From NCBI RefSeq assembly GCF_004362395.1, contig NZ_SNWE01000016.1:1-64000 (forward strand): a stretch of 64,000 nt of DNA. The letters are read 5' to 3'. The DNA comes from Salegentibacter sp. 24. Its GTDB lineage: Bacteria; Bacteroidota; Bacteroidia; Flavobacteriales; Flavobacteriaceae. Every line of letters begins with the position of its first letter. The first letter of the stretch is position 1. The notes under the pieces are model-generated. The model worked only from the letters and a program-made list of their open reading frames with translations. It was not told where the DNA came from and did not search any database. The position numbers and the translations under genes are program-made. Below, in pieces: positions 40,937 through 43,344 of the stretch.

Positions 40937-41347
40937 TCAATTTTCAAAGGCTTCAAAAGTACCATCTTGGTAAAAAATCACAATTTTTCTAATAGGTTTG
41001 CTTTTTCCGGATTTGCTAAAAGAAAATGGCATTTCATTTTTCTCTGGACTACTATTTTCTTGGTGGTTTAAAGTGGATGAGGTGTCCTTTATAGCTTCCT
41101 GGGGAGCGATAGGTTTACCAGAAGGAGGAAAGCTTCCTTTTCCATTTAATAGCCAATATAATTCCACTTCGGGAAATGACTTTATAACCTTCATTACAAA
41201 ATCCAAACTAGGCTTGTTTCTGCCCGATAAAATATGCGAAATAGAAGATCGTCCAACTTCAATTTTATCAGCAAAACCTGCAGCCGATAATTCATAAAAT
41301 TCGAGGATTTTATGCAAGCGTTTAGAAAAATCCTCGGTGTTTACCAT
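40937..41347 (-). CDS. XRE-family transcriptional regulator
   Basis: A 136-residue DNA-binding protein. The N-terminal helix-turn-helix (about 8-65) reads LSAAGFADKIEVGRSSISHIL and SGRNKPSLDFVMKVIKSFPE (cut: GRSSISHILSGRNKPSLDF), in the lambda-repressor class; the C-terminal half is a low-complexity linker and a short strand-rich end KIVIFYQDGTFEAF. Its start codon lies within the first of six TTAC-N4-GTAA palindromes that fill the space to the divergent M14 peptidase gene, which strongly suggests autoregulation and control of that gene. Confidence 0.9.
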   Translation of the reverse strand: MVNTEDFSKRLHKILEFYELSAAGFADKIEVGRSSISHILSGRNKPSLDFVMKVIKSFPEVELYWLLNGKGSFPPSGKPIAPQEAIKDTSSTLNHQENSSPEKNEMPFSFSKSGKSKPIRKIVIFYQDGTFEAFEN

Positions 41348-41623
41348 TGTAAATAATACTGTAGTGAATTGTTATTTACAAATGTAATCAAACCTATTGT
41401 AGCCTGCAAATTACAATTGTAATTAAATCAAACAGGGTAAACTTATACTTTAATTGAACGAGTTTAAAAAACTAAAAATAAGAATATTATATGTAAAATA
41501 TAATTCAGTTGGAGAAATTCCATGTCTCTGGCATTTTGAAATCAATTAGTGTTTACAGATGTAACTAATAAAAGTTAATTTAATCGTTTACAATTGTGAA
41601 TTTTGTATTGTTTACTTTTGTAA
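41341..41623. promoter_or_regulatory. Array of six TTAC-N4-GTAA palindromic operators
   Basis: Six copies are seen: 41341-41352, 41376-41387, 41411-41422, 41553-41564, 41588-41599 (last half GTGA) and 41612-41623. Centre spacings are 35, 35, 142, 35 and 24 bases. The first covers the XRE start codon, the third is a perfect 16-mer (41409-41424) and the last, GTTTACTTTTGTAAAC (41610-41625), covers the -7 box of the M14 peptidase gene. They are most likely sites for the XRE protein. Confidence 0.75.
41594..41620 (+). promoter_or_regulatory. Promoter of the M14 peptidase gene
   Basis: TTG (41594-41596), a 16-base spacer and TACTTTTG (41613-41620). Start of transcription would be at or near the ATG 41626, so the message is nearly leaderless. 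Operators 5 and 6 overlap both boxes, as expected for repression. Confidence 0.6.
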
Positions 41624-41625
41624 AC

Positions 41626-42789
41626 ATGAAAAAAATGACATTATACAAACAACTTTTGCAGGACTATAATTTGTTTAAAGAAGAGGGAGTTTCCGGAAGG
41701 TATGTTCGATATGCTGATATCCAAATTTTACTCAAAAAATTGGGAGATGAATTCCTTTTGGAAGAAATTGGAGAATCGGTTTTGGGAAAGCCTATCGATG
41801 GGATTCAATTCGGCAGTGGAAAAATTAGAATTCTTGCCTGGTCCCAAATGCACGGAAATGAATCTACCACTACAAAAGCTATTTTTGACCTGCTTAATTA
41901 TATTTATAAATACAAAAAAGAAGCTTTTGTGATATCGCTGTTGGAGAAATGTAGTTTCTATATTCTCCCCATGTTGAATCCTGATGGCGCTCAGGCGTAT
42001 ACCCGTGTTAATTCCAATAAGGTTGATCTAAACCGAGATGCCCAGGATTTAAGTCAGCCCGAAAGTAGGATTCTTCGAAAAGTTTTTGAAAAATTTAAAC
42101 CTGACTTCTGTTTAAACCTCCACGACCAGCGCACTATTTTTAGTGTCGGCAATAAGCCAGATCCTGCAGTGCTCTCTTTTTTAACGCCTTCTATGGATAA
42201 GGAACGACGAATTTTTCCTTCCAGGATTAAAAGTATGCAGCTTATTGCAAAAATTGTCGATGATCTTTCCGATTTGTTACCCAATAGAATAGGCAGGTAT
42301 GATGATGGATTTAATATTAATTGTACAGGAGATACTTTTCAAAGTACCCAAACTCCTACGATTCTTTTTGAAGCCGGCCATTTTCCGGGGGATTACCAGA
42401 GAGAAGAAACCCGGAAATATGTGTTTTTAGCTTTAATATCTGTTTTGAAAGCTATTAGTGAAAAAAGTTTCGAAAATTTGGATTATAATAAATACCAGGC
42501 AATTCCAGAGAATAAAAAGCTTTTCAATGATGTTATTCTAAGAGGGGTTAATTCAGAAAATGGCATAGTAGATATCGCCATTCAATATAAAGAAGAGGTA
42601 AAAAATAAAGAACTGGTCTTTATTCCAATAATCGAAAAAATAGCTCCTAAAATTAGCAGATTTGCACATAAAGAAATCATTTGTGAGAATAAAAAAATTA
42701 CCATTAATCACAAATCTATACTTACCGAAAACGTTATAGTTAATAAAATCGCCTTAAATGGTGTAGAATTACAGTTTAAATGTGAATAA
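41626..42789 (+). CDS. M14-family zinc carboxypeptidase
   Basis: A 387-residue cytoplasmic metallopeptidase; the start ATG 41626 (MKKMTLYKQ) is chosen because the longer frame runs through the promoter. Zinc ligands are in WSQMHGNEST (HxxE) and LNLHDQRT, with the substrate Arg in VDLNRDAQ and the catalytic Glu in FEAGHFPGDYQREE. The C-terminal 100 residues form a separate strand-rich part. No signal peptide is seen, so the substrate is a cytoplasmic peptide or amide. It faces the XRE gene across an array of palindromes. Confidence 0.88.
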   Translation: MKKMTLYKQLLQDYNLFKEEGVSGRYVRYADIQILLKKLGDEFLLEEIGESVLGKPIDGIQFGSGKIRILAWSQMHGNESTTTKAIFDLLNYIYKYKKEAFVISLLEKCSFYILPMLNPDGAQAYTRVNSNKVDLNRDAQDLSQPESRILRKVFEKFKPDFCLNLHDQRTIFSVGNKPDPAVLSFLTPSMDKERRIFPSRIKSMQLIAKIVDDLSDLLPNRIGRYDDGFNINCTGDTFQSTQTPTILFEAGHFPGDYQREETRKYVFLALISVLKAISEKSFENLDYNKYQAIPENKKLFNDVILRGVNSENGIVDIAIQYKEEVKNKELVFIPIIEKIAPKISRFAHKEIICENKKITINHKSILTENVIVNKIALNGVELQFKCE

Positions 42790-42864: not shown

Positions 42865-43344
42865 ATGGCCAAGTTTAAATTAGACGAAACAGATCACCAA
42901 ATTCTCGATATGTTAATTGAGAATACTAGGACTCCATTTACCGATATCGCGAAGAAACTTTTAATATCGGCAGGAACTGTACATGTAAGGGTTAAAAAAA
43001 TGGAAGAAGCAGGAATTATAAAAGGTTCCTCTTTAACCCTTGACTACAAGAAATTGGGTTATGCGTTTATTGCCTATGTTGGTGTATTTTTAAAGAATAC
43101 TTCGCAAACTAAATTCGTACTGGAACGTATTAATGAAATTCCATTCGTAACTGTTGCCCACGTAACTACAGGTAAATTTAACGTGTTTTGCAAAATTAGA
43201 GCACGAAATACTCAGCACGCTAAGGAAGTTATCTTTCAATTAGACGATATTGAAGGAGTTTACAGAACAGAAACTATGATTTCTTTAGAAGAGAGCTTAA
43301 ACGATAAAAAACGTTTAATGCACTCTATTTTTCAGGACATGTAA
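42865..43344 (+). CDS. Lrp/AsnC family transcriptional regulator
   Basis: A 159-residue regulator with the N-terminal winged helix-turn-helix (LDETDHQILDMLIENTRTP, FTDIAKKLLISAGTVHVRV, KKMEEAGII) and the C-terminal RAM ligand domain (about 68-150, YVGVFLKNTSQTKFVLERI, HVTTGKFNVFCKIRA). Members respond to amino acids and bind as octamers. The ligand is not evident. A hairpin terminator separates it from ppc downstream, so it is monocistronic. Confidence 0.95.
   Translation: MAKFKLDETDHQILDMLIENTRTPFTDIAKKLLISAGTVHVRVKKMEEAGIIKGSSLTLDYKKLGYAFIAYVGVFLKNTSQTKFVLERINEIPFVTVAHVTTGKFNVFCKIRARNTQHAKEVIFQLDDIEGVYRTETMISLEESLNDKKRLMHSIFQDM

Follow-up and report, generated by a model that had tools for sequence, protein, structure and literature searches.

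Background

The CI repressors of phages lambda, 434 and P22 act on multiple operators, and CI-type repressors are able to loop or wrap DNA. DNA loops are also formed by the Escherichia coli repressors LacI, GalR, AraC, DeoR and NagC, which belong to protein families other than XRE. Helical phasing between operators is normally shown by base insertion in one construct; in the case described here, the natural sequences are the experiment. PMC8053113 describes both the 186 CI wheel and the lambda loop, and states that helical phasing experiments often confirm loops in vivo and that sensitivity to phasing is absent for loops over 500 bp.

In the window, by which we mean the whole 64-kb stretch of DNA that was analysed, a gene for an XRE-family regulator and a gene for an M14 peptidase diverge from an intergenic region carrying six palindromes. 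The locus resembles the phage CI systems (lambda, 434, P22 and the 186 CI wheel) in the small HTH_3/CI-like domain of the regulator, the several palindromic operators, the two divergent promoters, the probable autoregulation and the putative action across a distance. Unlike phage CI, XRE is encoded by a Flavobacteriaceae chromosomal gene, carries a short hairpin, with no CI C-terminal domain found, and has an M14 peptidase as its partner. With the E. coli loop-forming repressors the locus shares helical phasing between separated operators, but here the phasing is read from natural species variation, not from engineered inserts. The restriction-modification controllers C.BclI and C.AhdI, SinR and 434 Cro are alike in the fold of the XRE HTH, whereas their partner genes differ. 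We know of no long gap between operator clusters in the restriction-modification controllers, SinR or 434 Cro.

Literature searches that covered titles and the start of abstracts, with subscription journals mostly outside their range, gave no match for the XRE-M14 pair or for an autoregulated divergent XRE. Searches of titles and abstract starts for the motif letters, the phasing and the conserved operator spacing yielded no description of an XRE-M14 system, and one for DNA loops made by Bacteroidetes repressors returned nothing relevant, only one apparently unrelated review. The initial annotation had called this a regulatory system unknown from the literature. That holds for the regulator-target pair and for the record of phasing in natural sequences, both of which are new, but not for the kind of system, since looping or wrapping repressors of the CI type and of E. 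coli are known.

Palindromes and promoters of the XRE-M14 region

The features of the region are as follows, in window coordinates.

40937-41347, minus strand: XRE-family regulator, 136 aa (HTH at about residues 1-72, low-confidence linker, C-terminal beta-hairpin at 121-135)
41341-41352, no strand: site 1, covering the XRE ATG (41347-41345); present in 204/223 loci
41376-41387, no strand: site 2, holding the predicted XRE -7 box TACATTTG (41386-41379, minus strand); present in 183/223 loci
41407-41410, minus strand: TTTG, a possible -33 element for XRE, at a distance of 20 bp from its -7 box
41411-41422, no strand: site 3, 35 bp beyond site 2; present in 41/223 loci and missing from most relatives
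41423-41552, no strand: spacer between the two clusters, the proposed loop, with its length constrained modulo one helical turn
41553-41564, no strand: site 4, present in 103/223 loci, 32-35 bp ahead of site 5
41588-41599, no strand: site 5, TTACAATTGTGA, with one mismatch; 24 bp ahead of site 6
41612-41623, no strand: site 6, holding the predicted M14 -7 box TACTTTTG (41613-41620)
41626-42789, plus strand: M14 zinc carboxypeptidase-like protein, 387 aa, with an in-frame ATG at 41635 as alternative start
42865-43344, plus strand: AsnC/Lrp regulator, downstream of M14 on the same strand

A pattern search of the intergenic region found five exact copies of TTAC-N4-GTAA, starting at 41341, 41376, 41411, 41553 and 41612, and one copy with a single mismatch; successive steps are 35, 35, 142, 35 and 24 bp. 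The initial annotation had listed six copies, and its centres, its three 35-base steps and one of 142, and its placing of one palindrome over the XRE start codon and of the last over the M14 -7 box all agree with our results. It erred in taking all six as exact, since 41588-41599 has one mismatch, and it did not mention the XRE -7 box within site 2.

The clustering of the palindromes is far beyond expectation. The 64-kb window contains eight exact copies compared with 1.27 expected (none of 100 shuffles reached eight), and five of the eight fall in the XRE-M14 region; for the 329-bp XRE-M14 stretch, the five copies compare with 0.024 expected, and none of 20,000 dinucleotide shuffles reached five. 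The palindrome consensus, derived from 272 sites, is GTTTACAnnTGTAAAC. Across the genome the loose TTAC-N4-GTAA motif was at background (112 copies, control 109). The tighter core TTACAnnTGTAA occurs eight times in the 4.15-Mb genome, compared with two for the control, and three of the eight copies are at the XRE-M14 locus. A wider regulon in the same genome was considered and rejected, as only five TTACAnnTGTAA copies lie outside the locus (control 2).

In Flavobacterium psychrophilum, PMC9723704 places the sigma-A -7 box, TAnnTTTG, at -12 to -5. This sequence is directed towards XRE within site 2 in 173 of 183 loci and towards M14 within site 6 in 179 of 204 loci, whereas site 5, which has the same consensus, contains it far less often, with 53 and 57 of 204 loci for the two directions. 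If the box lies at -12 to -5, as PMC9723704 indicates, transcription is predicted to start near 41374 for XRE and near 41625 for M14. With an XRE start near 41374, site 1 would lie downstream of it, over the ATG, at about +23 to +34 of the predicted transcript. The TTTG at -33 of XRE is poorly conserved; of the 173 loci having the -7 box, 36 show a TTTG at a distance of 16-23 bp. M14 translation could begin at ATG 41626, which gives a leader of about 1 nt (nearly leaderless), or at ATG 41635, with a leader of about 10 nt. The distance from the box to the first in-frame M14 ATG is 16-20 nt in 112/179 relatives and 5 nt, like the window, in 27/179. Operators that cover both -7 boxes argue for repression, and we infer that XRE would repress rather than activate both genes.

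The XRE protein

XRE scores 28.3 bits against HTH_3 (PF01381; Pfam cut-off 23), and all 39 aligned orthologues match HTH_3 at E<=0.001. Its score against Phage_CI_repr, 21.6 bits, is just under the cut-off of 22, and no Pfam match to the CI C-terminal domain was found in the protein, which places it outside full membership of the phage CI repressors. Its Pfam matches are confined to HTH/CI families, and it is the single match in its own genome at E<=0.01. The structure predicted with 39 aligned orthologues consists of a confident five-helix HTH and, beyond a linker of low confidence, an isolated beta-hairpin at residues 121-135, again predicted with confidence, in which D128, G129 and F131 are nearly invariant. 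The closest solved folds of the HTH include C.BclI, C.AhdI, SinR and 434 Cro (Foldseek, best E 7e-3); no Foldseek match reached E 0.001 or below. In the model, one could guess that the C-terminal hairpin joins dimers or bridges clusters.

Two other identities were considered and set aside. XRE scores 19.6 bits against the HigA antitoxin model TIGR02607, for which the NCBIfam cut-off is 47.7, and the divergent neighbour is M14, not a toxin. As a defence or toxin-antitoxin protein, XRE gave weak matches only.

Conservation of the sites and their coupling to XRE

A search for M14 relatives, from which the best 80 of 585 confirmed loci were used, revealed an XRE orthologue divergent from M14 in 75 of the 80. 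The 76 XRE-M14 intervals (window included) contained 211 exact motifs compared with 1.7 expected and a shuffle maximum of 8. A further 80 loci were added from 80 of the 236 matching genomes of the order; the 80 take in the greater part of the window's family, the other families being sampled. The combined set held 161 loci, of which 5 were without XRE; among the 156 oriented loci, 17 had no divergent M14 and 6 had an interval over 420 bp, and 133 were kept. A new test set consisted of 100 unused loci of the family, the top ones by similarity to the window's XRE out of 343 matching genomes. Removal of 2 loci without a detected M14 and 8 exact duplicates left 90, and 77 of these have both site 2 and site 5; since non-duplicate relatives were retained, some dependence between these 77 and the first set persists.

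Every one of the 231 loci in which M14 is divergent and no more than 420 bp from XRE has at least one site scoring >=11, and 224 have at least three; the 231 include the 8 exact duplicates (223 distinct loci), and the first 76 regions supplied the weight matrix, which makes this result partly one of construction, although the 90 new loci had no share in the matrix. Homologous loci keep the palindromes and also, as described below, their spacing, contrary to what the initial annotation had named as grounds for refutation.

A regulator other than XRE, for example a winged-helix protein of the BlaI/CopY type, might bind the sites, with XRE as only a target gene. Which protein binds cannot be read from the motif by itself, because its core, TACAnnTGTA, is the same as that of the CopY/CopR operators. 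CopY and CopR themselves belong to a family other than XRE. Twenty orthologous M14 loci (5 from the best-80 search and 15 further) were initially without an XRE match. Fourteen of them have at least 450 bp of upstream sequence in which no XRE was found, and here 12 were siteless, one had one site and one had two; L039 and L287, both among the 14, apparently represent a single genome. The other six fall into two groups of three: loci truncated at a contig end, with two, none and one site, and loci where a diverged or broken XRE was recognised in the end, with two, one and one. The sites are thus mostly gone where XRE is not found though M14 stays. Conversely, among XRE loci in which M14 was undetected in the stretch or more than 420 bp away, sites were present at the XRE start in 24 of 25, compared with 0.13 expected in total; other families contribute 18 of these loci, and three (L163, L214 and L278) are on short contigs from which M14 may be missing.

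Close site pairs elsewhere in the genomes are almost absent. Among 395 genomes of the order, pairs were detected in 51 of 72 XRE-positive and in none of 4 XRE-negative genomes of the window's family, compared with 2 of 76 family genomes for a backward-pattern control, and in 18 of 319 genomes of other families. With the single exception of G388 contig 10, all pair places listed in the 51 genomes coincide with the XRE locus. The genome-wide count suggested in the initial annotation therefore gave a divided answer, with the loose motif at background and its clusters above it. Because the sites go with the presence of the XRE gene and are nearly absent elsewhere, XRE is likely the binder of the palindromes, and we regard control by another regulator as very improbable. 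The putative binding of XRE would need no loop, as the sites persist at XRE without an adjacent M14.

Several loci of these sets deserve separate mention. In two of the 14 XRE-less M14 loci, sequence next to M14 weakly matches the C-terminal hairpin of XRE (E 0.004 and 0.016). XRE is decayed in L313 and L314, with weak remnants of the C-terminal hairpin only, and in L319, where it is matched only from residue 9, contains one stop and is next to a much shortened interval; the palindromes of these three loci are gone or down to two. In family f5 (L166, L169-L178, L184 and L185) the XRE frame is longer, 165-201 aa, and M14 is undetected in the stretch or 739-916 bp away; palindromes remain at the XRE start, often 33-35 bp apart. 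L308 and L309, of family f7, contain a relative of XRE that is highly diverged (25-27% identity) but keeps the C-terminal hairpin motif, and palindromes lie directly upstream of it, beside a different gene. The lone pair of G388 contig 10 (L306:1984-2035), with palindromes 36 bp apart, lies upstream of genes that were named by eye as an MFS-like transporter and a solute-binding/CoA-transferase-like pair.

Spacing of the sites and helical phase of the gap

Within the clusters the spacing is well conserved. Sites 1 and 2 are 34-36 bp apart in 84/97 loci and in 67/73 new loci, and sites 5 and 6 are 24 bp apart in 106/120 loci and in 79/84 new loci. The rule by which sites 5 and 6 were picked considered 21-25 bp and slightly favoured 24; a spacing count made without the picking rule also peaks at 24 and 35, with 41 neighbours at 24.

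The distance between sites 2 and 5 falls into classes near 202, 213, 223, 233 and 243 bp, one helical turn apart. In 92 of the first 96 loci it was 201-203, 210-215, 222-224, 232-235 or 243 bp, and the remaining four had 178, 194, 230 and 247 bp. A phase rule was fixed on these 96 loci ahead of the new data, with a distance d counted as in phase when the absolute value of (d-213)/10.45 modulo 1 is below 0.2. It was obeyed by 73 of the 77 new loci compared with 40% expected (binomial p about 1.6e-24, uncorrected for relatedness), and the out-of-phase loci had 209 bp once and 221 bp three times. Pooling gives 165 of 173 loci in phase and 8 out, with R = 0.79 at 10.45 bp, a best period of 10.3 and a smooth-null maximum of 0.23. 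In the 173 measured loci, therefore, the intergenic length drifts almost only by whole turns. The initial annotation had read the 142-bp step as 4 x 35; this lattice is contradicted by the gaps of the relatives, which step by about 10.4 bp, not 35.

The phase is sharper from site 2 than from site 1. Over all loci the site 1-site 5 distance gave R 0.54 compared with 0.79 for site 2-site 5, and among 88 loci with all of sites 1, 2, 4, 5 and 6 the values were 0.74 (site 1-based) and 0.82 (site 2-based). No site 2 was detected in 40 of 223 loci, including those of the Maribacter and Arenibacter type, so the loop geometry, though common, is not universal.

One could envisage that common descent or the way in which sites were picked has produced the phasing artificially: many loci have inherited their 213-214 bp from a common ancestor, and scores decided which sites served as site 2 and as the site 5/6 pair, a 24-bp step between sites 5 and 6 earning a small bonus. 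The all-locus statistics ignore relatedness, which is allowed for in the disjoint-pair test alone. A tree of the XRE and M14 proteins requires 36 or more changes of turn class (this tree replaced a first one with 41 changes, in which 77 of 173 M14 rows had under 200 residues). The absolute difference in distance between the members of 86 phylogenetically disjoint pairs was 0-3 bp in 63, 4-7 bp in none, 8-12 bp in 15, 14 bp in one, 15-21 bp in none, and 22 bp or more in 7. For the 23 pairs differing by at least 4 bp, the mean cosine at 10.45 bp was 0.51, a value attained by 37 of 200,000 jittered nulls. As to picking, which makes no reference to the 10.45-bp period, a count of exact motifs, which involves neither a weight matrix nor a choice of sites, has its gaps at the same distances (204-209, 216-220, 226-231, 240-244 and 250-255 bp). 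The exact-motif count gave R 0.54 at 10.45 bp with a best period of 11.4; R is lower here since this count does not separate site 5 from site 6 as the partner, and the two differ by 24 bp. A control gap, from the M14 stop to the Lrp start (56-126 bp, in 80 loci), showed no periodicity (R 0.04). We give hardly any credence to an artefactual origin of the phasing.

Conservation in the spacer is 0.3-0.5 bits per base, compared with 1.3-1.6 in sites 2, 5 and 6, and same-length members of disjoint pairs have a median of 53% ungapped identity in the spacer (random, 36%). Given the quantised distances and the weakly conserved sequence, the length of the gap is constrained modulo one turn while the spacer sequence drifts.

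Probable loop formation by XRE

Operator separation in whole helical turns, a property expected of a DNA-looping repressor, is found at this locus by comparison among species, and the gap of about 200-245 bp fits looping, as PMC8053113 has phasing sensitivity absent above 500 bp. We think it fairly probable, from the sequence comparisons, that XRE is a CI-like autorepressor whose dimers bridge the two operator clusters into a loop, silencing the XRE and M14 promoters. XRE would be dedicated to this divergent promoter pair, and its dimers would bind the GTTTACAnnTGTAAAC palindromes of an XRE-side cluster (sites 1-3), over its own start codon and -7 box, and of an M14-side cluster (sites 4-6), over the peptidase -7 box and directly upstream. 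Dimers inside a cluster would be about 2.3 or 3.3 helical turns apart, and the clusters, held at a fixed rotational phase, would be bridged by protein-protein contacts, probably via the C-terminal beta-hairpin. Bridging would close a loop of about 19-23 turns, in which XRE and M14 are repressed together, and a fall in XRE activity would open both promoters. Since XRE would shut its own gene, the arrangement may act as a homeostatic or threshold switch. The initial annotation had likewise proposed control by XRE with looping or wrapping of the region, and apart from its 35-bp lattice this outline agrees with the comparison in that the sites follow XRE, lie on both -7 boxes and flank a phased gap.

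Alternatively, XRE might act on the two clusters separately, repressing either promoter from its own sites, with the phasing of the gap being due to another factor such as a host architectural protein, to rotational coupling of the promoters or to DNA curvature. Each cluster alone covers a promoter, and the persistence of XRE-proximal sites without an adjacent M14 indicates that autoregulation needs no loop. Independent binding, however, needs no phase across 200 bp, yet the great majority of the new loci obey the phase rule; and, with the spacer sequence diverging, a conserved curved element or binding site within it is not evident. Independent action of the clusters is, in our judgement, unlikely.

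A special form of the looping reading, which overlaps with it, is that roughly 280 bp are wound around a large XRE ring or filament, as with 186 CI, instead of forming an open loop. The 24- and 35-bp spacings and the gap classes share, by simple arithmetic, an offset of roughly one-third of a turn, and XRE has a weak profile similarity to 186 CI (E 0.09). On the other hand, XRE has no 186-like C-terminal domain but a short hairpin after a low-confidence linker, and no repeats were found inside the window's spacer. Wrapping of this kind appears unlikely. More broadly, we put forward tentatively, as a possibility somewhat short of an even chance, that a CI-like family of host regulators with a minimal hairpin assembles dimers at one-third-turn offsets into one higher-order particle that wraps or loops the region and switches two genes as a unit, the variation of length in steps of a turn recording selection on the particle.

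The looping reading, in which XRE dimers would bridge the two clusters, makes the XRE-M14 region a directly testable candidate for DNA looping in Bacteroidota. Turn-quantised spacing is a signature that can be read from sequence only, and could be used to seek other loops.

The M14 peptidase and its neighbours

The M14 protein scores 56.7 bits against PF00246 (Pfam cut-off 21.6), and H76, E79, R127, N136, R137, H166 and E249 are invariant in 25 sequences. We take these residues to correspond to the zinc ligands and catalytic residues of carboxypeptidase A. The protein is accordingly classed, from its sequence, as a predicted zinc carboxypeptidase; comparison with solved structures for its function gave weak general carboxypeptidase matches only. 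A second, paralogous M14 (L301-L305), which was set apart, had sites in none of 5 loci.

The AsnC/Lrp gene is possibly co-transcribed with M14, which it follows in all 80 related loci (best 80 of 585). Across the best 80 of 585 loci, the AsnC/Lrp protein is 79-100% identical compared with 46-75% for M14, and is thus unusually conserved.
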